In this document: in pieces, positions 14,703 to 58,298 of the stretch
Layout of the letters: each line of letters starts with the position of its first letter
How positions within the stretch are numbered: the first letter of the stretch is position 1
Source of the DNA: Christiangramia fulva
GTDB taxonomy: Bacteria; Bacteroidota; Bacteroidia; Flavobacteriales; Flavobacteriaceae
Assembly (NCBI RefSeq): GCF_003024155.1
Contig: NZ_CP028136.1
Location: 1-64,000, forward strand
DNA length: 64,000 nt
Reading direction: 5' to 3'
Position numbers and translations under genes: made by a program
The notes under the pieces: model-generated
The model's input: only the letters and a program-made list of their open reading frames with translations
Told to the model about the DNA's origin: nothing
The model's database searches: none

Positions 14703-16577
14703 GTGAACTACCTTTCAGTAGAAAATATAGCAAAATCATACGGGGAACGTGAGCTTTTCCGAAACATCTCTTTCGGGATCAACGAAGGCCAGAAAGTAGG
14801 CTTCGTAGCCAAAAACGGAACCGGCAAAACCAGCTTATTGAACATTCTCGCCGGCACCGATACCCCCGACGAAGGCCAGGTAGTTTACCGCAACGATATC
14901 CAGACGGCTTTTCTTTCTCAGGAACCCGATCTCGATCCTGAACTGAACATTGAGCAGGTGATCTTCTCCAGTGAGAATCCTATTTTAAAGATCATTGAGC
15001 GCTATGAAAAGGCGGTTCATAATCCCGAAGACGCCGATGCCCTTCAGAAAGTTATGGATGAAATGGAAGCGGCCAATGCCTGGGATTTTGAAACCAGGTT
15101 CAAACAGATCCTCTTTAAACTCAACCTGGAAGATTTTCAGAAACAGGTAAAATTCCTTTCCGGCGGACAAAAGAAACGTCTTGCTCTCGCCAGGATGCTT
15201 CTGAAGAATCCCGATTTTATTATCCTTGATGAGCCCACCAACCATCTCGATCTCGATATGATCGAATGGCTGGAGGAATACTTCAGGAAGGAAGATTTCA
15301 CCATTTTTATGGTGACTCACGACAGGTATTTCCTTGAAAGAGTATGTAACGAGATCATTGAACTGGAAGACGGTAAGCTCTATACCTATAAGGGAAATTA
15401 TTCCTATTATCTCACCAAGAGGGATGAAAGGCACGAGCTTGAAAAGACCAACACCGAAAAAGCGCAACAGCTTTATAAAAAGGAACTGGATTGGATGCGC
15501 CGGCAGCCAAAGGCGCGGACTACCAAATCTAAATCCCGCATTGATGATTTCTACGAGATAAAAGACCGCGCCTCCCAGCGCCGAAAAGACCATCAAGTAC
15601 AATTGGAGATCAATATGGAGCGAATGGGCAGCAAAATTGTCGAGATCCATAATATTTCCAAAGAACTTGGCGGAAAAAAGCTCATGGAAGGCTTCGACTA
15701 TAATTTCAAAAAAGGTGAGCGTGTGGGGATCATTGGTAAGAATGGCACGGGAAAATCTACATTTCTGAACATGCTTACCGGGATTATTCCACCGGATACG
15801 GGAAAAATAATAGTGGGCGAGACCATTAAATTCGGCTATTATACACAGAAAGGAATGGAGATCAAACCTGGACAGAAGGTGGTGGAAGTGATCAGGGAAT
15901 TTGGAGATTATATTCCTCTGAAGAAAGGCCGACAGATCTCAGCGGAACAACTGCTGGAGCGCTTTCTTTTCGACCGAAAGAAGCAGTATGATTATGTGGA
16001 AAAATTGAGTGGTGGCGAAAAGAAAAGGCTTTACCTCTGTACCGTACTTATTCAGAATCCTAATTTCCTTATCCTCGATGAGCCCACCAACGACCTGGAT
16101 GTACTTACACTAAATGTCCTGGAGAACTTTTTACTGGACTTTCCCGGTTGCGTGGTGGTGGTGTCTCACGACCGATATTTTATGGACAAGATCGTTGACC
16201 ATTTGTTCGTATTTCAGGGCGATGGAGAAATTCAGGATTTCCCCGGAAATTATACCGACTACCGGGAATACGAATCCTCCAGACCTAAAAGTTCCAATTC
16301 TGAAACTTCTGAAGCTAAGCAGGAGAAAAAGAAAACCTCCAGCACGAGTTCCGGCTCTGCACTCTCTTACAATGAAAAGAAGGAATTTGGAAAACTGGAA
16401 AAGGAGATCGCCAAGCTCGAAGAGAAAAAAGAGGAGATACAGCAGGAATTTTTAAAAGAACTTTCAGGAGAAGAGATCAACAAAACCTCACAGGAATTAA
16501 AAAAGGTCGAAGACGACATAGAAACCAAAACCAACCGCTGGTTTGAATTGATGGAGAAAATGGAAAATAGTGATTAG
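14703..16577 (+). CDS. uup: ABC-F ATPase, Uup family
   Basis: 624 residues. The start is GTG 14703; an upstream TTG at 14643 lies before the promoter. Two ABC domains: Walker A AKNGTGKT (residues 36-43), signature LSGGQKKR and Walker B LDEPTNHLD; then GKNGTGKST, LSGGEKKR and LDEPTNDLD. The linker between them is charged and helical. The C-terminal ~80 residues are coiled coil (LEKEIAKLEEKKEEIQQE), the feature that separates Uup from other ABC-F proteins such as EttA; length matches E. coli Uup (635). ABC-F proteins act on the ribosome, or for Uup also on DNA structures (transposon excision). No membrane domain. Confidence 0.92.
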   Translation: MNYLSVENIAKSYGERELFRNISFGINEGQKVGFVAKNGTGKTSLLNILAGTDTPDEGQVVYRNDIQTAFLSQEPDLDPELNIEQVIFSSENPILKIIERYEKAVHNPEDADALQKVMDEMEAANAWDFETRFKQILFKLNLEDFQKQVKFLSGGQKKRLALARMLLKNPDFIILDEPTNHLDLDMIEWLEEYFRKEDFTIFMVTHDRYFLERVCNEIIELEDGKLYTYKGNYSYYLTKRDERHELEKTNTEKAQQLYKKELDWMRRQPKARTTKSKSRIDDFYEIKDRASQRRKDHQVQLEINMERMGSKIVEIHNISKELGGKKLMEGFDYNFKKGERVGIIGKNGTGKSTFLNMLTGIIPPDTGKIIVGETIKFGYYTQKGMEIKPGQKVVEVIREFGDYIPLKKGRQISAEQLLERFLFDRKKQYDYVEKLSGGEKKRLYLCTVLIQNPNFLILDEPTNDLDVLTLNVLENFLLDFPGCVVVVSHDRYFMDKIVDHLFVFQGDGEIQDFPGNYTDYREYESSRPKSSNSETSEAKQEKKKTSSTSSGSALSYNEKKEFGKLEKEIAKLEEKKEEIQQEFLKELSGEEINKTSQELKKVEDDIETKTNRWFELMEKMENSD

Positions 16578-16622
16578 TGATCGGTGTATGGGGATTGGGG
16601 AATAGTGATTCGTGATTCTAAA

Positions 16623-17628
16623 AACAACCGGCAACCTTTCCAAAACTCCTAAATCTGAATTCTGCATTCAGAACTAACCTAAGGCATAAAGCTTATAGCT
16701 CCTGATAACATACCTTTCTTCTAATTTTTAATGCTTAGGACTATCCCAACAATCTAACATCTAAAAATCCAATAATCCAGAATTATTTTCCTCTTTCCCT
16801 CTTTTCCTTTTTAACTTTGAATTTTGAATTTTGAATTCTGAATTCTGCATTCATAACTAACCAACGCAGCAGATTCGAAAGATTAAAAAAGAGATCGTCA
16901 CTGCGAGGAAGCATAGCGACCGAAGCAGTCTCCTCCTACAAATCCAACCAGCCAAAATGAGATTGCTTCTGCGCCTCCGTCGCAGCGCAAAGACGACTGA
17001 AAATAAGAATAGATTCTGACCCAGAAACAACCGGCAACCTTTCCCAAACTCATAACTCTCAATTCTGCATTCAGAACTAGTCTAATGCCTAAAGCAGAAA
17101 ACCAATGAGAACATATTTTACTTCTAATTTTTTAATGCTTATGACTATCCCAACAATCTAACATCTAAAAATCCAATAATCCAGGATTATTTTCCTCTTT
17201 CCCTCTTTTCCTTTTTAACTTTGAATTCTGAATTCTTCATTCAGCACTAACCCAAATCGACAGATTCGAAAAGATTAAAAAAGAGATCGTCACTGCGAGG
17301 AAGCTTAGCGACCGAAGCAGTCTCCCCTACTAAAAGCTAACCATCCAACATGAGATTGCTTCTGCGCCTCCTGCGCATCGCAAAGACGAATGGAATTAAG
17401 AATAGGTCTGACACGGATCCAAAACTCATAACTCAGAATTCTGGATTCATAACTAGCCTAATGCCTAAGGCATAAAGCTTATAGCTCCAACCAATGATAA
17501 AACACCTTACTTCTAATTTTCTAATGCTTATGACTATTCCAACAATCTAACATCTAAAAATCCAATATTCCAGGATTATTTTCCTCTTTCCCTCTTTTCC
17601 TTTTTAACTTTGAATTTTGAACTAACAA
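16623..17628 (+). repeat. Tandem ~400-bp repeat array, three copies
   Basis: The 1,051-base gap holds three diverged copies of one unit, aligned by TAACTTTG at 16812, 17216 and 17605 (periods 404 and 389). Copies start with ACAACCGGCAACC (16624, 17027; missing in the third), then a run of AATTC-type words, TCCCAACAATCTAACATC, a pyrimidine-rich stretch and TAACTTTG. The first two units also carry two dispersed palindromes each in opposite orientations (16891-16933 with 16959-16997; 17283-17326 with 17352-17389). The third ends directly at the next gene's ATG. Confidence 0.85.
17605..17612 (+). promoter_or_regulatory. -7 promoter motif before methyltransferase gene
   Basis: TAACTTTG matches TAnnTTTG and lies 17 bases before ATG 17629. 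Identical motifs occur at the same place in the two upstream repeat units (16812-16819, 17216-17223). I see no clear -33 TTG, so activity is uncertain. Confidence 0.4.
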
Positions 17629-19932: not shown

Positions 19933-20006
19933 ACAATTATTCTGCCACCCTGAGCTTGTACCCTGAGCGCCTAGCCTGAGAACCTGGCCTGAGCTTGTCG
20001 AAGGGT

Positions 20007-20073
20007 CAGTATTCAGTATTCAGTATTCAATATTCAGTATTCAATATTCAATATTCAATATTCAATATTCAAA
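20007..20073 (+). repeat. 7-bp tandem repeat (ATTCAGT/ATTCAAT)
   Basis: About nine head-to-tail 7-bp units, first ATTCAGT then mostly ATTCAAT. A GAGCTTGTCGAAGGGT-type motif common in flavobacterial intergenic repeats precedes it at 19990-20006. Confidence 0.9.
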
Positions 20074-28788: not shown

Positions 28789-28980
28789 CTGTAGACTGAA
28801 GACTGTAAACTGAAGACCGAAGACTTTAGACTAAAGACTTTAGACTAAAGACTGAATATATACCGTAGGCTGTTTGATCCATTATTACATTTCTACATTG
28901 ATCCATTTCCACATTGATACATTTCCACATTGATCCATTTCTACATTGATACATTGGTTCATTGATACATTTTTACATTG
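28789..28980 (+). repeat. Two word-repeat blocks before lnt
   Basis: 28789-28856 repeats AGACTGAAGACT/AGACTAAAGACTTT words (period ~13-14). 28879-28980 repeats ACATTGATCCATTTC/ACATTGATACATT (period ~15). The second block reaches the lnt promoter. Confidence 0.9.
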
Positions 28981-28995
28981 AAATCCCTATTTTTG
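28962..28995 (+). promoter_or_regulatory. Promoter for lnt, partly inside a repeat
   Basis: TATTTTTG (28988-28995) matches TAnnTTTG, 17 bases before ATG 29013. The likely -33 TTG (28962-28964) sits inside the ACATTGATACATT repeat block. Confidence 0.5.
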
Positions 28996-30605: not shown

Positions 30606-31263
30606 TTCGGAGTTAAGAGTTTTGAGTTAAAAGTTCGGAGTTCGGAGTAGAGCAGGCACTCAGGACAGGTGCTAAGTGACAATCTGAAGATTTAAATTCA
30701 AGATTCCGAATCTTTTAAAGAGCCTGAAAAATAGCATAAAGCCTATAGCCTTAAAGCTGCATATTTCTAACCTCGCAAATACTAATTCAACGACGTCATT
30801 GCGATCATCCGCCTTAAGCGGAGGAGAAGCAATCTCTTATTCAATTTGAAAATATCCCAATTTGAAAATTTGAAATTGGCTTATTATTGAGATTTTAGAA
30901 TCAGGACAGGTTATTATGAAGAGTCATTTAAATAGCCTAAAGCCTATAGCCTATTGCTTAAGGCTGTTAAAACGTACATTGATCATGGTTTGGAGTTAAA
31001 GGTTCGTAGTTCGGAGTAGAGCAGGCACTCAGGGCAGGTGCTTAGTGACAACCTGAAGATTTAAATTCAAGATTCCGGATTTAAGATTCTAGATGGCCTT
31101 TAAAGAGCTTGAGGATAGAAGAGGATATTATTGAAAATACTTTTAAGCCTATCGCCTATAGCCTAAGGCTTTTAAAACGTACAGCTTATTGTCTATTGAT
31201 CATTGCTAATTGCTAATTGTTAATTGTCCATCGTTAATTGCTCATTGTTAATTGTTACTTGCC
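30604..31263 (+). repeat. Duplicated ~369-bp intergenic block with palindrome
   Basis: No gene seen in this 658-base gap. GGAGTAGAGCAGGCACTCAG occurs at 30642 and 31011 (369 bases apart), and similarity continues through ATTTAAATTCAAGATTCCG and AAGCCTATAGCCT. A dispersed palindrome is at 30795-30836, and the right end (31195-31260) repeats TTGCTAATTG/TTGTTAATTG words. Confidence 0.8.
30795..30836 (+). repeat. Dispersed GTCATTGCGA palindrome
   Basis: GTCATTGCGA, then CCGCCTTAAGCGG, then GAAGCAATCTC. The centre is an inverted repeat CCGC/GCGG around TTAA. Confidence 0.8.
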
Positions 31264-32696: not shown

Positions 32697-33704
32697 TTAA
32701 CCCAGTAAATCTATCCAAAACTCTTTAAGCCTCTCCCAATCGTATTTTTCAGCCTCCAGACGGGCATTTTTACTAATGCTTTCTGCTTTTGTTGGATTTT
32801 GAAGCAGATCTGATATTTCATGTGTAAGATCCTTCACAGTTCCTTCGGCTAATTTTCCGCTGAGATCATGCTCGATAAGGTAAGGAAGTCCGCCTACGCT
32901 TGCCGAAACTACCGGTAATCCCAGCGCCATCGCTTCAAGGACGCTTACCGGCAGATTATCTACGGAAGAAGTATTCAAAAATATATCATAATCCTCGGAT
33001 AATGCTGCCCATTCGGTTTTGCTGAGTTTTCCGCAGAATTTTACAGGCAGCCCGTGCTTCTCAACATAGGCTCTTGTTTTTTCAAAACTTCCGTCTTTCT
33101 CAGGGCCTACCATACAAAGTTCGGCTTCAGGATATTCTTTCTGCAGTTCACTGATGATCTTCACGGCAAGCTTCGGCCGATACACCTTATCAAAAGCCCG
33201 TACCCAAAGGATTCGGGGTTTCAGATTTTTTCGTGCTTTAAAAGGGTACTGACTAACACTAATGGCATTGGGAATATATAGTAGATTTTCCAGCTCAAAG
33301 GTTTCAAGCTGTTCCAAAAGATATTTTGAAGGTACTATATTGAAATAAGCTTTTTTAAAGATCCTTAATATACTAGGGGAGCTTTCGCTAAATCGCTGAA
33401 CAAGGTTTCCGCCGTGAAGGATAAATATATAGGGAAGTTTAAGCATACTGCAGCAGTAGCCGCTCATGACCGCGTACCAGAAATTGGAAGTGCTGTAGGT
33501 ATCAATAAGCACCAGGTCGATCTTTTTGCTGTTTCTTAAAATACTGCTTAACATATGCAGTAGCCGCAAAACTTTATTTTTGTAATGGGAAACAGCTTTG
33601 AACTCTAATCCTTCTTCGGCAAGTAAATCGGGTAAAATATCAACGCTGGTGGGAGCCGCGCCATGCTTTTCAAGTTTATTGCCGATATAAAGGATATTTT
33701 TCAT
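32697..33704 (-). CDS. Family 4 glycosyltransferase (paralogue A)
   Basis: 335 residues. I chose ATG 33704 (MKNILYIGNKLEKHG), which aligns with the start of the paralogue at 36116; a longer frame to 33788 only reads through a hairpin repeat. GT-B fold: N-terminal ILYIGN, middle FILHGGN, and the C-terminal nucleotide-binding part with LWVRAFDKVY, MVGPEKDGS and ALGLPVVSASVGG near the E-x7-E region. Retaining transferase; sugars unknown. The protein shares its design and many words (HGGNL, MVGPEKDGS) with the 35103 gene, so a tandem duplication is likely. Confidence 0.85.
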   Translation of the reverse strand: MKNILYIGNKLEKHGAAPTSVDILPDLLAEEGLEFKAVSHYKNKVLRLLHMLSSILRNSKKIDLVLIDTYSTSNFWYAVMSGYCCSMLKLPYIFILHGGNLVQRFSESSPSILRIFKKAYFNIVPSKYLLEQLETFELENLLYIPNAISVSQYPFKARKNLKPRILWVRAFDKVYRPKLAVKIISELQKEYPEAELCMVGPEKDGSFEKTRAYVEKHGLPVKFCGKLSKTEWAALSEDYDIFLNTSSVDNLPVSVLEAMALGLPVVSASVGGLPYLIEHDLSGKLAEGTVKDLTHEISDLLQNPTKAESISKNARLEAEKYDWERLKEFWIDLLG

Positions 33705-33724
33705 AAAGTTAGTTATCATAATTA

Positions 33725-33766
33725 CCTCTCCCTCGGGAGAGGTCGGAACTGTTTTATACAGTTCCG
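33725..33766 (-). repeat. Two adjacent hairpins just upstream of a GT gene
   Basis: CCTCTCCC (33725-33732) with GGGAGAGG (33735-33742), and CGGAACTG (33744-33751) with CAGTTCCG (33759-33766). They end 20 bases before ATG 33704 in the gene's sense, so they would form in its leader. They look like a repeat element of the same broad GC-rich CTCCC type as the one in the 39 kb gene. Confidence 0.75.
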
Positions 33767-33791
33767 GTTGAGGAAGGTCAGGAATCAAGCA

Positions 33792-35112
33792 GCCTGCTCC
33801 ACTTTTCCTTTACCGGTTCCATTTTTCCCTCACCAGTTCCCCGTCAATATATTCTCCCCTTTTTCGAAGAATATGTGGGTAAAACCTCGAGATCCAGGAG
33901 AGGCGATTTTTTCAATCGCATCTCCGCGGGTTTTTTTTCACGGTTTTTTGGCATTTTCGCCAAAAAATTCCCTGAAAAAGGCGTCTTTTTCTTTGCTTCG
34001 TTTCTTTTGGACGAGCAAAAGAAATGAAGGTTCACAAACTCCTGTTTATTTTATAAAAATAAAACACTGAGCTAAAGGAAGGAAATAAAAGAATGTAAAA
34101 CGCCAAAGAAATTAACCCGCACCTATCAAAAAAAACTAAGCAAACAGCCAGTTCAACTTTTCCTTCACAAGTTCCCTTTCAATAATTTCCTCCCTTTTTC
34201 GAAGAATATGTGGAGAAAACCTCGAGATCCAGGAGAGGCGATTTTTTCAATCGCCACTCCGCGGGGTTTTTTCCACGGTTTTTGGCATTTTCGCCAAAAA
34301 ATTCCTTGAAAAGGCGTCTTTTTCTTTGCTTCGTTTCTTTTGGACGAGCAAAAGAAATGAAAATTCACAAACCCACACCTATCAAAAAAACTGAGCAAGC
34401 AAACTGTTCCTCTTTTCCTTCACCAGCTCCCTTTCAATAATTTCCTCCCTTTTTCGAAGAATATGTGGAGAAAACCTCGAGATCCAGGAGAGGCGATTTT
34501 TTCGATCGCCTCTCCGCGGGGTTTTTTCCACGGTTTTTGGCATTTCGCCAAAAAATTCCTTGAAAAAGGCGTCTTTTTCTTTGCTTCGTTTCTTTTGGAC
34601 GCGCAAAAGAAATGAAGGCTCACGAACTCCTGTTTATTTTATTAAAAATAAAACACTGAGCTAAAGGAAGGGACAAAGGTGAAAAAAATACAGCATTCCC
34701 AAAGCATTTCTGAAATACTGTAGCTATTTTAGAACTCACATCCTCAGGATCTATAACCTACAAAAAATAACTATCCAACCAGCCTGTTCCACTTTTCCTT
34801 CACCAGTTCCCTTTCAATAATTTCCTCCCCTTTTTCGAAGAATATGTGGAGAAAACCTCGAGATCCAGGAGAGGCGATTTTTTCGATCGCCTCTCCGCGG
34901 GGTTTTTTCCACGGTTTTTGGCTTTTTCGCCAAAATATTCCTTGAAAAAGGCGTCTTTTTCTTTGCTTCGTTTCTTTTGGACGAGCAAAAGAAATGAAGG
35001 TTCACAAACTCCTGGTTATTTTATAAAAATAAAACACTGAGCTATACGAAGAAAATAAAAGATTGAAAAGCACCAGGGAAATCAACCCCTATCATAAAAA
35101 AACTAAGCAAGA
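33792..35112 (-). repeat. Four-unit repeat array carrying a GT 3' end
   Basis: Units begin at about 33792, 34147, 34401 and 34782, each 254-381 bases, and the same sequence begins the 35113 end of the GT gene. Each unit starts with GCCTGTTCCACTTTTCC, the reverse of the GT's last codons (ELVKEKWNRL). Each also holds GAGAGGCGAT...ATCGCCTCTC (10-bp stem in units 3-4, imperfect in 1-2), TTGGC...GCCAA and TTTCTTTTG-GACGAG-CAAAAGAAA (9-bp stem). Several small open frames here (SSKRNEAKKKTPF) are repeat readings, not genes. Confidence 0.85.
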
Positions 35113-39035: not shown

Positions 39036-39067
39036 GTTGAACTTTGAACTTTGAACTTTGAACTTTT
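39036..39067 (-). repeat. GAACTTT word repeat at GT 3' end
   Basis: Four copies of TTGAACT (7-bp period) run into the stop codon region of the next gene (39066). Confidence 0.85.
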
Positions 39068-40283
39068 AATTTTTCAACACTCCCCTTATCCCTGCTTCAA
39101 ATTTTTCCAGTGTATATTCCTGGCTCCACTCATGCGCCCTTTTTGACATCTTATTCATTTCCTCTTCATCTTGCAGTAACTCAATTATCTTATCAACTAC
39201 TTCCAAAACGCTCCCTGTTTCTGTTCCCCCTTTGGGGGAATTAAGGGGGCTGGGGAGAGATGGAGAGGGGCCTTGGGGGCCTTGGGGGCTGGGGAGAGAT
39301 GGAGAGGGGCCTGGGGGCGCTGGGAGAAGGATCCCCCTGGATCCTTCTCCCAGCATCCACGGCACACACGAGATTTCCGTTCCAATTGGTATACATCCAA
39401 AGAACATTCCCTCTGCCAGGGCTTTTGGCCAGCCCTCGCTCCTCGATGGGAGTATACTAAAATGCGCTTTTTTATAGGCATTCTTTAAGACCTCCTGAGG
39501 CTGATTTCCTTTTAAAAAAATAAACTGCTGCAGCTCGTTTTTTGAAATATAATCTTCTAAATTTTCCTTTTCCGGACCTTCCCCGTAAATATCCAATTCG
39601 ACATCAAATCCATTTTGATAAAGCTCCTCAACGATCTTTACGGCTAAAACAGGTTGCTTTCCTTCGCTAAGGCTTCCACAAAAGAGAAACCGGAAAGGAG
39701 CTTTAAAATTTTTACTTACCTGCTCTTTCTCCGATTCTGAAAAACTCGCCGTAAAAAAAGGAATGATATTCTTACTTTGATTTTCCCAGTTTCCATAGAC
39801 CAGAACTTTCGTATTTCTGCTTAAAAAAGTATTGGAAAGCCACCATTTCTGAAAACGGTAACTTAAAGGCTGTTCGCTTTTCGATTCCCAGTTCCCGGCA
39901 TACTTTACCGTCTTGGGTTTGTGCGGAAACAAAGATGAAACTACCATAGCCAGCATTCCCACATTGCCTGGACATCGAATATGTATATGATCGGCCAGCT
40001 TCATTTCCCGGTAGCAGGCTTTAATCACTTTAAAACTGTCTGCTATATTTTTTAAAAAATCATTGCCTTTATAATGTAATGAAGGAATCTTTACATGCTG
40101 AATATTTTTATGCTGATAGGCCTCGTCAATTACTGAAGGATCCCTGGAACTTCGGGGTGCTACCACTTTGACACTTTCAATGTCGGCAATCCATAGGTTC
40201 ATTTCTTTCACATAAGGACCATAGGAATATAAATTCCCCTTCTTCAAAAAATGGTCGGCATGTGAAAAGATACTGAATATCAT
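39066..40283 (-). CDS. Family 4 glycosyltransferase with in-frame repeat insertion
   Basis: 405 residues from ATG 40283. GT-B features: KTVKYAGNWES in the N-terminal half, FRFLFCGSLSEGKQPVLA and LPSRSEGWPKALAEGMFFGCIP (E-x7-E) in the C-terminal half. After the conserved LGEGSRGILLPA a stretch of ~34 residues of Pro, Ser, Gly and Leu (two copies of GPSPSLPSP 13 residues apart, ending NSPKGGTET) interrupts the fold before VLEVVDKIIELL. It comes from a GC-rich DNA repeat at 39224-39353. The enzyme may still fold, as the insertion lies in a surface loop before the last helix; activity is uncertain. Confidence 0.85.
   Translation of the reverse strand: MIFSIFSHADHFLKKGNLYSYGPYVKEMNLWIADIESVKVVAPRSSRDPSVIDEAYQHKNIQHVKIPSLHYKGNDFLKNIADSFKVIKACYREMKLADHIHIRCPGNVGMLAMVVSSLFPHKPKTVKYAGNWESKSEQPLSYRFQKWWLSNTFLSRNTKVLVYGNWENQSKNIIPFFTASFSESEKEQVSKNFKAPFRFLFCGSLSEGKQPVLAVKIVEELYQNGFDVELDIYGEGPEKENLEDYISKNELQQFIFLKGNQPQEVLKNAYKKAHFSILPSRSEGWPKALAEGMFFGCIPIGTEISCVPWMLGEGSRGILLPAPPGPSPSLPSPQGPQGPSPSLPSPLNSPKGGTETGSVLEVVDKIIELLQDEEEMNKMSKRAHEWSQEYTLEKFEAGIRGVLKN
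39224..39353 (-). repeat. GC-rich repeat element inside a GT gene
   Basis: Consists of TTCCCCCTTTGGGGGAA (39224-39240), two direct copies of GGGGGCTGGGGAGAGATGGA (39245, 39284; 39-base period), and a perfect 15-bp inverted repeat CTGGGAGAAGGATCC/GGATCCTTCTCCCAG (39320-39334 with 39339-39353). Confidence 0.85.
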
Positions 40284-52847: not shown

Positions 52848-54011
52848 TTAGTATTGGATGCTTTTATGCGATCTTAATTCGATTTTTGCCAGTATATTAG
52901 CGATTTTCTTACCGGAATTACCATTGCCGTATATAGTTGAAGTACTAAATCTACCATTTCCATTCAATTCCTTGATTTTCGCCAGTATCTCTTCCCGCTT
53001 GTAGCCCGTGTGAGTGACATTTTCTCCTTTGAGCCTTCGTTGCTGCCGGCTCCCAATATCTATGGCCGGTACTCCAAGGTAACTGCACTCCCTGATCCCC
53101 ACACTGGAATTTCCGATCAGCATTTTGGAATGCTTCAGCAATCTTAAAAAGTCCAGGGGATCTATATTTTTAAAAAAATGGATGTTTTCGGGATTTTCCT
53201 GTTCTCTGAAAGTCCTAATTCCATTGGAAGTGCCGTCAGAGCCCGCATCTACATTTGGCCAGAACCAGAAAGACGGAATTCCCGAGTCGCTTACCGCATG
53301 AAGCGTTTCTAGTATATGTGTTCTCGCTTTTTCATATTCCGAGGTAACAGGATGCTGCATTACCACCAGGTATCCATCCTGCCAGCGAATGTTTTTTCCC
53401 ACTCCGCCATATTTTTCTAACGGATTAAAATTAAGAGCCTCATCATTGGCAATCTCCTTTGCAAGATCGATGGAAGGGCATCCGGTATTGATCACCATTT
53501 CAGGATCCTCTCCCAGCCTGATCACCCTTTCCCGGGCATCTTCGTTCGACACCAGGTGAATATCGGCAAGTTTGGTATTGGCGTGCCTTACTTTTTCATC
53601 GATGCTTCCGGTCACTTCTCCTCCCTGTATATGCACTAAGGGAATATTCTGGTATGCCGCGGCTATAGAAGTAGCGATGGTTTCAAACCGGTCGGCGATG
53701 GTGATGACCGCATCAGGCTGCAGGTTATAAAAGACATTGGTGAGTTCCATTAGTCCGAGACCGGTAGTTTTCGCCATGGTCGTGGGATTCTCCCCCTCAA
53801 GCACCATATAGACCTTTGCCACTGCCTCAAAACCATCATTCCTGATAAAATCTGCCGCATTGCCATATCTGTCAAGCAAAGCCGAACCAGCAACCACCAA
53901 TTGAAGTTCCAATTTAGGATGTTCTTTAATAGCCTGCAGTGCCGATTTGATCCTACTATACGACGGACGGGCGGTGATGACTACGCAGATTTTTCTTCGA
54001 TCTAGGCTCAT
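52848..54011 (-). CDS. neuC: UDP-GlcNAc 2-epimerase, hydrolysing (NeuC/LegG)
   Basis: 387 residues from ATG 54011. It converts UDP-GlcNAc (or a diacetyl-bacillosamine nucleotide, for LegG) to a free 2-epimerised amino sugar plus UDP. Typical motifs: VITARPSYSRIKSAL, ADRFETIATSIAA, HIQGGEVTGSIDEKVRHA and GNSSVGIRECSYLGVPAIDIGSRQ, in two Rossmann lobes. Length fits both NeuC and LegG, so the sugar product is not settled. It overlaps the methyltransferase-like gene by four bases. Confidence 0.88.
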   Translation of the reverse strand: MSLDRRKICVVITARPSYSRIKSALQAIKEHPKLELQLVVAGSALLDRYGNAADFIRNDGFEAVAKVYMVLEGENPTTMAKTTGLGLMELTNVFYNLQPDAVITIADRFETIATSIAAAYQNIPLVHIQGGEVTGSIDEKVRHANTKLADIHLVSNEDARERVIRLGEDPEMVINTGCPSIDLAKEIANDEALNFNPLEKYGGVGKNIRWQDGYLVVMQHPVTSEYEKARTHILETLHAVSDSGIPSFWFWPNVDAGSDGTSNGIRTFREQENPENIHFFKNIDPLDFLRLLKHSKMLIGNSSVGIRECSYLGVPAIDIGSRQQRRLKGENVTHTGYKREEILAKIKELNGNGRFSTSTIYGNGNSGKKIANILAKIELRSHKSIQY

Positions 54012-54646
54012 GTAAGATAATCTCTTTTAAAATATTTAAGCTTCATCAGTATCTTGGTCTTTATCCAAAACAAATATTGGAAAAAATCGGGATTGGTGAA
54101 TATTACTTTCAATCCTCCTTTGAATTCATCCGGATTCTTTTTTGAATATACACTGTTTTTTCGGACCGACACCATAGTGGCAAATTTATGCTTTGGAAAC
54201 AAGGATCTCAATTTCTTTACCTGTTCTTTTCTATCTCCTTCTATTAGCAGGATACATTTTTTGCTCATCTTTTTCTTTAAACTCTCCAGCTCATTTTCGA
54301 TACCATCAATGATAATTAGATCCAGCAAAAGCCCCTCTGGTAATGCTTGAATATTCGGATATAATTTCAATTGGCTAAAATTTTTACCCATATTTTTAGA
54401 CAGTTGCTTCAAACAGAATTCATTGTTCTCGGTTCCATACACTTGTGGTTTAAAGCTAAATTCTGCCTTCAGTATGGAGTCGCTGATGGTCCCGATTCCC
54501 ACCCCTGCCTCTAGTATGGTGCCGGGTTGAAAAATAGAGACTGTTTTTAATATACCGTAAATTGCGTATTCGCTGGCAATAAATTGGCTGCCATCAGCCT
54601 GGGAAAATTTCTGGTATTGTTCTTTTGCTATAGCTTTAATACGCAT
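54008..54646 (-). CDS. SAM-methyltransferase-like protein
   Basis: 212 residues from ATG 54646. Motif I is EAGVGIGTIS (near residue 46), followed by YGTENNEFCLKQL and LIIIDGIENELE (motif IV-like). A basic C-terminus with Phe/Trp (FFQYLFWIKTKIL) may sit at the membrane. The match to a class I methyltransferase fold is fair; the target is unknown. Its start is only 12 bases from the divergent GT39-like gene. Confidence 0.7.
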   Translation of the reverse strand: MRIKAIAKEQYQKFSQADGSQFIASEYAIYGILKTVSIFQPGTILEAGVGIGTISDSILKAEFSFKPQVYGTENNEFCLKQLSKNMGKNFSQLKLYPNIQALPEGLLLDLIIIDGIENELESLKKKMSKKCILLIEGDRKEQVKKLRSLFPKHKFATMVSVRKNSVYSKKNPDEFKGGLKVIFTNPDFFQYLFWIKTKILMKLKYFKRDYLT

Positions 54647-54658
54647 TTTTAACTAATA

Positions 54659-56163
54659 TTGATAAAATATTGTTCGCATTTGGTAAATCAGCTTAAAAAT
54701 AAAATTCCTCTTTATATAATGGCCGTATTCGCAGGAATAATTATTTATCTGATATCCAAAAATCATTATTTAGGATTTTCTCCCGACTCAGTGACTTATT
54801 ATGAAGCCGCAAACAGTCTTAAGGCAGGGAAAGGATTTACTAATCTGGATGGCAAATATATAAACCATTGGCCTCCTGGCTATCCTTTATTGATTTCTGC
54901 ATTCTCCTCTATCCTGGGAATCTCAATAATGCTAGCTGGAACACTGGTAAATGCGCTAAGCCTTTTTTCCACTACTATAGTTCTTTTTAAAATTTTTGAA
55001 CTTTACGGAATCCCTGGGAGGATTTCCTATCTTCTGCTGCTACTGTATATTTTTTCTCCTGTATCAACAATATATATATATGGTATTTATCGGAAGGTTT
55101 TTTCATATCCCTGCTCCTTTCCTCCTTTTTGTTCCTAAAAAAATGGCAGAACACGCATTCCGGATGGACTTTATTTGTAAGTGCATTGATTTTAGGAATG
55201 TCTATTTTGGTACGATATGCTGGTATTGGTTTCGCAGGCGCATATTTAATGTATATAGTACATAAAGACTTCAAATCCTTAAGAATATTATTTTCCAGTT
55301 TGCTTTCTTTTTTTACGGCTCTTCTGATCCCAATTGTTCCCTGGTTTATTTATACCCGCTTAAACGACGTGTCTTCACATGATCGGAAGTTTTCTTATGA
55401 GCTGATTCCTTTCGCTAAATTACAGGAAATGTTTTTCAATTTTGGAACCTGGATTTTCGGCAATATGAATGGCTTGGTATTTATGGCGGTTGCTTTTTCC
55501 TTTTTGGTATTGATTTATAGAAAAAGACTAAAAAAAATCAAGCTTAAGGATTTTATTTTAAGGAATTGGAGAGAGTTCAGACTTCCATTTATCCTTAGCT
55601 GTACGTATTTTTTATTTATTCTTTTTTCAGCTGCTTTTTTAGATCATGCCATCCCGTTCTCAAATCGTATCTTTAGTCCTGTTTATCCTTTTTTTCTGAT
55701 CGGCTTAGGACTTTTTATTACTTTTTTATCTCGGCAGGTTTCCTTTAGATTATATCTTCTGCTCCCCCTATTGATATTGATTTCTTATTCTTTTCGAAGC
55801 ATTCCGGTCTATAGCGATCATTATAAAGATGGTTCGGGATTTACTTCTGTCAAATTTAGCGAATCACCCACAATTCAATATCTTAGAAAGAACTATCCAA
55901 ATAAAATTATTTATACCAATGATGTATTTATTCCAAAGATTTTTACGGATAACAAAAAAATAAAACACCTGCCTCTTTCAGCTGATTCTGCAGATCTTGA
56001 GAAATGGAGATCCAACATAAAAGATAGCGCAGCCATAGTAATTTACCTGGACTCTGTGAATTGGCGAAATTATATAATTAAAAAGTACAAAGTAGAAAAT
56101 CTTTTTAAAGATCAGAACATTAAAAGATTTAACGATGGAATTATTATCAAACCGGAGAAATAA
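54659..56163 (+). pseudogene. GT39-like membrane glycosyltransferase, frame broken in AT repeat
   Basis: Two plus-strand frames (54659-55138, 159 residues with a TTG start; 55129-56163, 344 residues) read as one GT-C protein. The first part has FSPDSVTYYEAANSLK and HWPPGYPLL; after the break the other frame gives WYLSEGFFISLLL, the conserved SE loop, then many membrane helices and a periplasmic tail. The break lies at (AT)6, 55070-55081; removing one AT unit yields a continuous 500-residue protein (TIYIWYLSEGFF). It is the only plus-strand gene in the locus. It may be phase-variable, an old pseudogene, or a sequencing error. An ATG at 54719 is an alternative start. Confidence 0.8.
55070..55081 (+). 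repeat. (AT)6 dinucleotide repeat at the frame break
   Basis: Twelve bases, six AT units. The number of units sets the reading frame of the GT39-like gene: five (or eight) units join both halves. Confidence 0.85.
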
Positions 56164-57284: not shown

Positions 57285-58298
57285 TTAGACATCAGTGATC
57301 ATATCAGCAGTTAGAAAATCCCATTTTTGGCAATCTTTTAAGAGAGCTTTACCAACCACCTTATAAAAATCCTCTGGTTTGATGCCATACCCATTGGGCT
57401 TTTTTGCTTCCAGATCATTGAAATTCAGAATATGACCTTTTTTCAGGTCCTTATTTACCGCTAATGACTTTTCAAAAATTCCTTTAAGGTCAGTAAATCT
57501 TGAATTGTCTTTTTTATCCACCGGATTTTCAAGAGCTTTTGAAATGTGCTTTATAGCTATTAGCAGCTCGATTATTTCTTCTATTTCAAGAGAGGAGGAA
57601 GCATCAGGCCCAAAGCTTTTCCTGCTAAAGACCGCATGGAATTCGAGAATTTCTGCACCAAGCGCAGTTGCAGCTATACAGGTTTCTTTTTTAGCGGAAT
57701 GATCAGAGAATCCCACCGAAGTCCTGTATCTTTCTTTTAATTCTCCTATCACATTTAACCCAAAATTCTCCGGTTTAGAAGGATAGGCCGTGGTACACTG
57801 TAATATGGAGATATCGATGTTTTTTTCTCTTAAAAATTCAACGCTTTTATCCAGCTCTTCATAAGAACTCATTCCAGAAGAAAGTATTACAGGCTTTCCA
57901 GTATTCGCTATCTTTTCCAGTAAAAGAAAATTAGTCACCTCCCCCGATCCTACTTTATACCTCTTCACTTTAAGTTCCTCCAGAAGATCGACAGCCGCAT
58001 TGCTGAATGGCGAAGCCAGAAATTCAACTCTTTTTTCATCACACCTCTGTTTAAGAATTTTCCATTGCTCCTTGGTAAACTCCATTCGTTTCCAGTAATC
58101 GTAGCGCGTCTGGTCTTGTTGGGAGAACTTTACCCTGAAAGGCTCATAGATGCTACTTTCCGCCTCCGCGATATGCACCTGGAATTTTACGGCATTCACC
58201 CCGGCATCTGCAAGAGCATCGATATAGGCAAGAGCCATTCCCAGGCTTCCCTCGTGGGCCTGACCAACCTCAGCTATTATTTCTACCTGTTTTATCAT
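57285..58298 (-). CDS. neuB: N-acetylneuraminate/legionaminate synthase family
   Basis: 337 residues from ATG 58298. It condenses PEP with a six-carbon amino sugar to make a nonulosonic acid. The TIM barrel has IAEVGQAHEGSLGMA at the N-terminus, AVKFQVH, FLASPFSNAAVDLLEEL, KVGSGEVTNFLLLE, ILQCTTAYPS and VGFSDHS, all NeuB hallmarks. The SAF (antifreeze-like) domain fills residues ~280-337 (KPNGYGIKPEDFYKVVGK). With neuC and neuA in the same locus, a full path to a CMP-nonulosonate is present. It does not lie next to them: a GT and the GT39-like gene come between. Confidence 0.92.
   Translation of the reverse strand: MIKQVEIIAEVGQAHEGSLGMALAYIDALADAGVNAVKFQVHIAEAESSIYEPFRVKFSQQDQTRYDYWKRMEFTKEQWKILKQRCDEKRVEFLASPFSNAAVDLLEELKVKRYKVGSGEVTNFLLLEKIANTGKPVILSSGMSSYEELDKSVEFLREKNIDISILQCTTAYPSKPENFGLNVIGELKERYRTSVGFSDHSAKKETCIAATALGAEILEFHAVFSRKSFGPDASSSLEIEEIIELLIAIKHISKALENPVDKKDNSRFTDLKGIFEKSLAVNKDLKKGHILNFNDLEAKKPNGYGIKPEDFYKVVGKALLKDCQKWDFLTADMITDV

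Follow-up and report, generated by a model that had tools for sequence, protein, structure and literature searches.

A probable membrane GT-C glycosyltransferase gene of Christiangramia fulva is split across two reading frames at an (AT)6 tract

The window analysed here comprises the first 64,000 nucleotides of contig NZ_CP028136.1 of Christiangramia fulva (assembly GCF_003024155.1). It contains a polysaccharide locus with genes for NeuB, NeuC, a cytidylyltransferase, a formyltransferase and a deacetylase, together with an asparagine-synthase-like gene, an O-antigen-ligase-like gene and many glycosyltransferase genes. Judging by these genes, the product of the locus would be a nonulosonic-acid-containing surface polysaccharide. 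The features surrounding the gene of interest, which is broken in this assembly, are listed in Table 1. Scans for promoters, terminators and promoters of the Bacteroidota type returned matches at about the level expected by chance.

Table 1 Position, strand and basis of assignment of features at and around the split GT-C gene.
Feature	Position in window	Strand	Basis
Divergent neighbour (212 aa; weak match to PF00398, RNA-methylase-type, below threshold)	54008..54646	-	Profile search, C. flava comparison
GT-C gene, front frame	54680..55138 (54659 = earlier in-frame TTG)	+	Frame list, homologue alignment, P0017
(AT)6 tract, reading frame lost inside	55070..55081	+	Sequence, genome tract count
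LSE codons of the conserved YLSEG motif, rear frame only	55087..55095	+	Family alignment
GT-C gene, rear frame	55129..56163 (open stop-to-stop from 55000)	+	Frame list, homologue alignment
Convergent neighbour, glycosyltransferase-like, sub-threshold match to PF13524	56182..57201	-	Profile search, C. flava comparison
NeuB-family synthase, nonulosonic-acid part of the locus	57285..58298	-	Profile search

The front piece aligns to residues 6-143 of two relatives, P0002 (58%) and P0006 (55%). The rear piece, taken from the beginning of its open stretch, aligns from residue 122 of P0002 (59%) and P0006 (48%), and these alignments end at residue 489 of 497 and residue 490 of 493, respectively. Since both pieces match the same homologues, homology must switch frame within the (AT)6 tract or at its edge, and the offset between the two frames is that given by a change of one repeat unit. 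The first-pass annotation had described two plus-strand frames as the front and back of one GT-C protein, broken in the tract by a single AT unit, with an SE-loop motif regained when the frames are joined; this observation was confirmed. The front frame carries an SPDS motif, with its Asp codon at 54785-54787, and the rear frame carries YLSEG, whose L, S and E hardly vary among 14 aligned family members. The frames themselves are as first described, but the start originally placed at 54659 is corrected, as the TTG at 54680, at which P0017 starts and to which the Christiangramia flava homologue also aligns, appears more likely.

The product is probably a membrane GT-C glycosyltransferase that adds a sugar to the surface polysaccharide. 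The PMT_2 profile matched nine of 14 relatives at E values up to 0.001 (best 3.3e-08); P0002 scored below the curated cut-off, and P0006 and both window pieces gave no match. The GT-C fold was found on a structure model of P0002 (pLDDT 83.8), and on the strength of this model the intact family is predicted to have that fold. The lists of structures obtained with the P0002 model are headed by ArnT, PMT and OST entries, at 10-15% identity in those rows, and no solved chain was found by sequence profile at E values up to 0.1. ArnT, PMT and oligosaccharyltransferase GT-C enzymes, which are numbered GT83, GT39 and GT66 in CAZy, differ from the present gene by that identity and by the break in the window copy. 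The modelled fold agrees with the GT-C identity originally assigned, here described as PMT_2/ArnT-like.

Homologues were matched in four of 24 genomes in the search of the genus and in eight of 397 in the search of the family, the strain's own genome being included in both counts. At all nine full-length homologous places with DNA, the gene forms one continuous frame of 489-547 codons. Two fragments were left out of this set (G009, which starts 14 bases from a contig end, and G125, whose sequence ends about 150 bases past the match), and the stops flagged by the search in G086 and G163 are, by their position, frame ends. None of these nine carries a comparable AT run at the break site, with (AT)3 in C. 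flava and none in G006. The first-pass annotation had proposed checking whether full-length homologues keep the tract, and at this site they do not. Elsewhere in its gene, the G006 homologue has a (TA)5 near residue 332 in a continuous frame. A distant GT-C homologue in another genus (G086) was observed to carry an (AT)8 near residue 346 (L009, 2522-2537), also in a continuous frame, and codon shuffles of that gene reached this run length in 123 of 2000 cases.

Two proteins of the 14-member alignment, P0005 (334 aa) and P0004 (409 aa), start late and may be either broken or mis-started. No DNA encoding them was found in searches made with P0005, which among 372 genomes matched only the window's own, and in contig scans neither the rear frame nor P0005 picked up a relative. 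A full-length copy of the protein from Christiangramia fulva itself was not found in the protein collection, and therefore no other allele is known.

The part of the window from 20735 to 62881 is broadly syntenic with C. flava (G008). Most immediate neighbours of the broken gene are approximately 70-92% identical to their C. flava counterparts; the two GT-C pieces (48% and 54%) and the divergent neighbour (53.5%) are more diverged. The C. flava homologue, P0006, occupies the same syntenic place in the polysaccharide locus, in the same gene order and on the same strand, but differs in that it is whole (506 codons from stop to stop), has (AT)3 at the site and lacks an extra adjoining glycosyltransferase gene. 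This extra gene, the convergent neighbour located between neuB and the broken gene, is without a counterpart in C. flava over the 60 kb compared, and its relatives were found in three of 23 other genomes of the genus, one of them a weak match (27% identity). Since G006, one of the three, also has a whole GT-C homologue, the extra gene is no simple replacement of the GT-C gene. The orientation of the broken gene had initially been put forward as a possible sign of switching. The gene does lie opposite its neighbours, but so does its C. flava counterpart, and on account of this shared orientation an invertible or opposite-strand switch was rejected.

Apart from the break, the gene appears undamaged. 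Together the two pieces keep 66 of the 68 columns that are invariant in nine relatives, and in leave-one-out controls five relatives kept 68/70, 68/70, 68/70, 68/72 and 68/73 invariant columns. Within the close subfamily, compared in sets of four, the window gene keeps 129-151 of 142-170 columns (88-93%), and the corresponding leave-one-out figure for relatives is 79-94%. No second stop or frame shift was seen in the gene by homologue alignment or by the invariant-column test. Other disabling mutations, which the first-pass annotation had named as evidence against a switch, were thus not seen, and with 66 of 68 family-invariant residues kept there is no sign of a decayed pseudogene. The lack of decay elsewhere in the gene implies that the break is recent, that the gene sometimes serves, or that the break is a base-calling error.

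The tract is the only (AT)6 in the 4,380,140-base genome, in which (AT)5 or longer occurs at four places. With 404 kb of the Christiangramia fulva genome as training set, Markov models of order 1-4 predict 0.3-2.1 (AT)6 per genome versus the one observed, so that such a tract somewhere in the genome is unsurprising. The fact that the frame break falls exactly in the genome's sole (AT)6 points to slippage, either in the cell or in sequencing. When the codons of both pieces were shuffled, an alternating A/T run of at least 12 was obtained in 334 of 2000 shuffles and a run of at least 10 in 412; for the rear piece alone, its run of 10 was reached in 99 of 2000, a borderline result indicating a somewhat long run. 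On both pieces together, the length of the tract does not exceed what composition and codons predict, and the tract can be derived from the Ile and Tyr codons of an AT-rich membrane protein without any need for selection. Other repeats also occur in the 404 kb sample of the genome: dinucleotide runs of at least five units at three places, homopolymers of nine at twelve, and two arrays in which a heptamer is repeated four or five times.

Across the genus, (AT)6 or longer was found at 10 places in nine of 24 genomes, one of the tracts being (AT)8. Frames at these places were judged from open frames of at least 90 codons. Three tracts lie well inside frames of at least 150 codons, namely in the broken gene, in a GT4-like gene of G003, another species of the genus ((AT)6 at L040 1501-1512, open frame of 390 codons) and in an M14 peptidase gene of G021 (416 codons). 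For the other seven, the tract is outside any frame, close to the end of one or within one of fewer than 120 codons. The idea that AT tracts form a phase-variation class in this genus was rejected, as only these three of the 10 places are well inside frames of that length.

The split is probably genuine and recent, a frameshift caused by slippage that left the GT-C gene out of use, with reversal at a low rate possible in principle. During replication, the polymerase would have slipped on a short AT run derived from codons, and the resulting change in repeat number would have shifted the reading frame of the membrane glycosyltransferase gene. From the sequenced clone one would then expect just a truncated front product, short and lacking both the YLSEG loop and most of the membrane helices, and one periplasmic sugar decoration would be missing from the nonulosonic-acid-containing surface polysaccharide; another slip could restore the frame, although at a low rate. 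The break looks recent because the gene shows no decay elsewhere, an absence also compatible with a working switch or with an error in base calling. We infer slippage in vivo as the cause and, from the lost motifs, a loss of enzyme function; the role in the polysaccharide and the low rate of reversion are likewise presumptive. A single copying slip of recent date seems a better description of the event than an on/off switch shaped by evolution, and the event is of a kind already known.

Alternatively, the break could be a sequencing or assembly error in a genome that truly has a continuous gene. The otherwise undamaged gene is consistent with this, as is the fact that protein searches met a single assembly of the species. 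The quality of the assembly was assessed by comparing 592 C. flava reference ORFs (at least 150 codons, 0.86 Mb) with 404 kb of the genome at limits of 45% identity and 75% coverage, a comparison that detects frame shifts and not in-frame stops. The number of genes that passed, 70, is small because most of the sampled stretches need not be orthologous. Of these, 69 were in one frame, and the sole split gene was the GT-C gene itself. An error-ridden assembly was rejected on this result, which in combination with a completeness of 99.99% indicates that frame errors are not common and that a single error is possible; we consider an error at this particular site unlikely.

The first-pass annotation had raised phase variation as a possibility. 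On this reading the AT tract would be a contingency locus at which slippage turns sugar transfer on or off, and the sequenced clone would be in the OFF state. The description of a GT-C protein split by a shift fitting one dinucleotide unit, in a gene otherwise undamaged, stands, but phase variation is unsupported beyond the break itself. As in phase-variable loci, an uninterrupted coding repeat with a unit that is not a multiple of three lies at the frame break of an otherwise intact gene, and that gene probably acts on a surface glycan. The arrangement resembles SSR phase-variable surface-glycan genes, such as those of Haemophilus influenzae, in having a simple repeat in the frame of a glycan gene and the frame off; it differs from them in that the tract has six units only and is missing at the site in homologues.

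Published surveys bear on this reading in both directions. Six units is above the five-unit threshold applied to H. influenzae (PMC2651432) and below the eight taken as indicative of phase variation in a Neisseria survey (PMC5953494), the table of which begins at six. In the H. influenzae survey, each of the eight dinucleotide loci had five units, and at seven of them variation occurred with no change in length; hifA/hifB with (TA)9-11 is the known dinucleotide switch in that species, and its phase variation uses mainly tetranucleotides (PMC2651432). The Neisseria survey notes that dinucleotide tracts switch genes in other Gram-negative organisms, but the dinucleotide tracts it aligned displayed no change in repeat number (PMC5953494). 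Instability of mono- and dinucleotide repeats is described as growing with length and with loss of mismatch repair (PMC7015867). A mutS gene is present in the Christiangramia fulva genome (906.5 bits versus a curated cut-off of 641.7), which speaks against phase variation. By these sources, short dinucleotide tracts are poor switches. The sole match of a literature search on SSR phase variation with Flavobacterium concerns, by its title, Treponema, and a search on Gramella with pseudogene, frameshift and glycosyltransferase found none. Because the tract is within the range of codon shuffles, missing at the site in homologues and short against one of the two survey cut-offs, though above the other, phase variation is not shown, and we regard it as quite unlikely.

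Improbable, too, is a broader proposal. Membrane glycosyltransferase genes that are AT-rich readily form short AT runs from Ile-Tyr codons, and in this bacterial family such runs would act as slow switches of surface sugar decoration, with this gene in the OFF state; the (AT)8 of G086 lies in an intact frame. Bypass during expression, in which the ribosome or RNA polymerase would slip on the AT run so that some full-length enzyme is made, is highly improbable: judged from the sequence alone, re-pairing with identical codons would be possible after a one-unit slip, and no stop closes the rear frame, but a single frame serves in all nine full-length homologues with DNA.

Christiangramia is a genus of marine Bacteroidota. 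Were the tract to switch, it would represent dinucleotide-repeat control of surface glycans in this genus and might help the cells evade phages or grazers, and its state could be read from one amplicon. A single slip, which is likelier, matters mainly for annotation, and the strain would probably be without a polysaccharide decoration that may be present in C. flava.

Several other repeats were observed in the window. A GC-rich 39-base tandem duplication at 39225-39335 lies in a GT4-like glycosyltransferase gene on the minus strand (39066-40283). It encodes an in-frame Pro/Ser/Gly-rich insert that is absent from the C. flava counterpart, and the stretch has no match elsewhere in the genome. 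Many degenerate 7- and 8-base tandem repeats, mostly intergenic, are present at 16568-17621, 20006-20072, 28789-28981 and 31056-31261, and a 389-base repeat in about two copies spans 16822-17621. A 255-base tandem duplication with copies 93% alike (34114-34616) is located approximately 330 bases upstream of the gene at 32697-33788.
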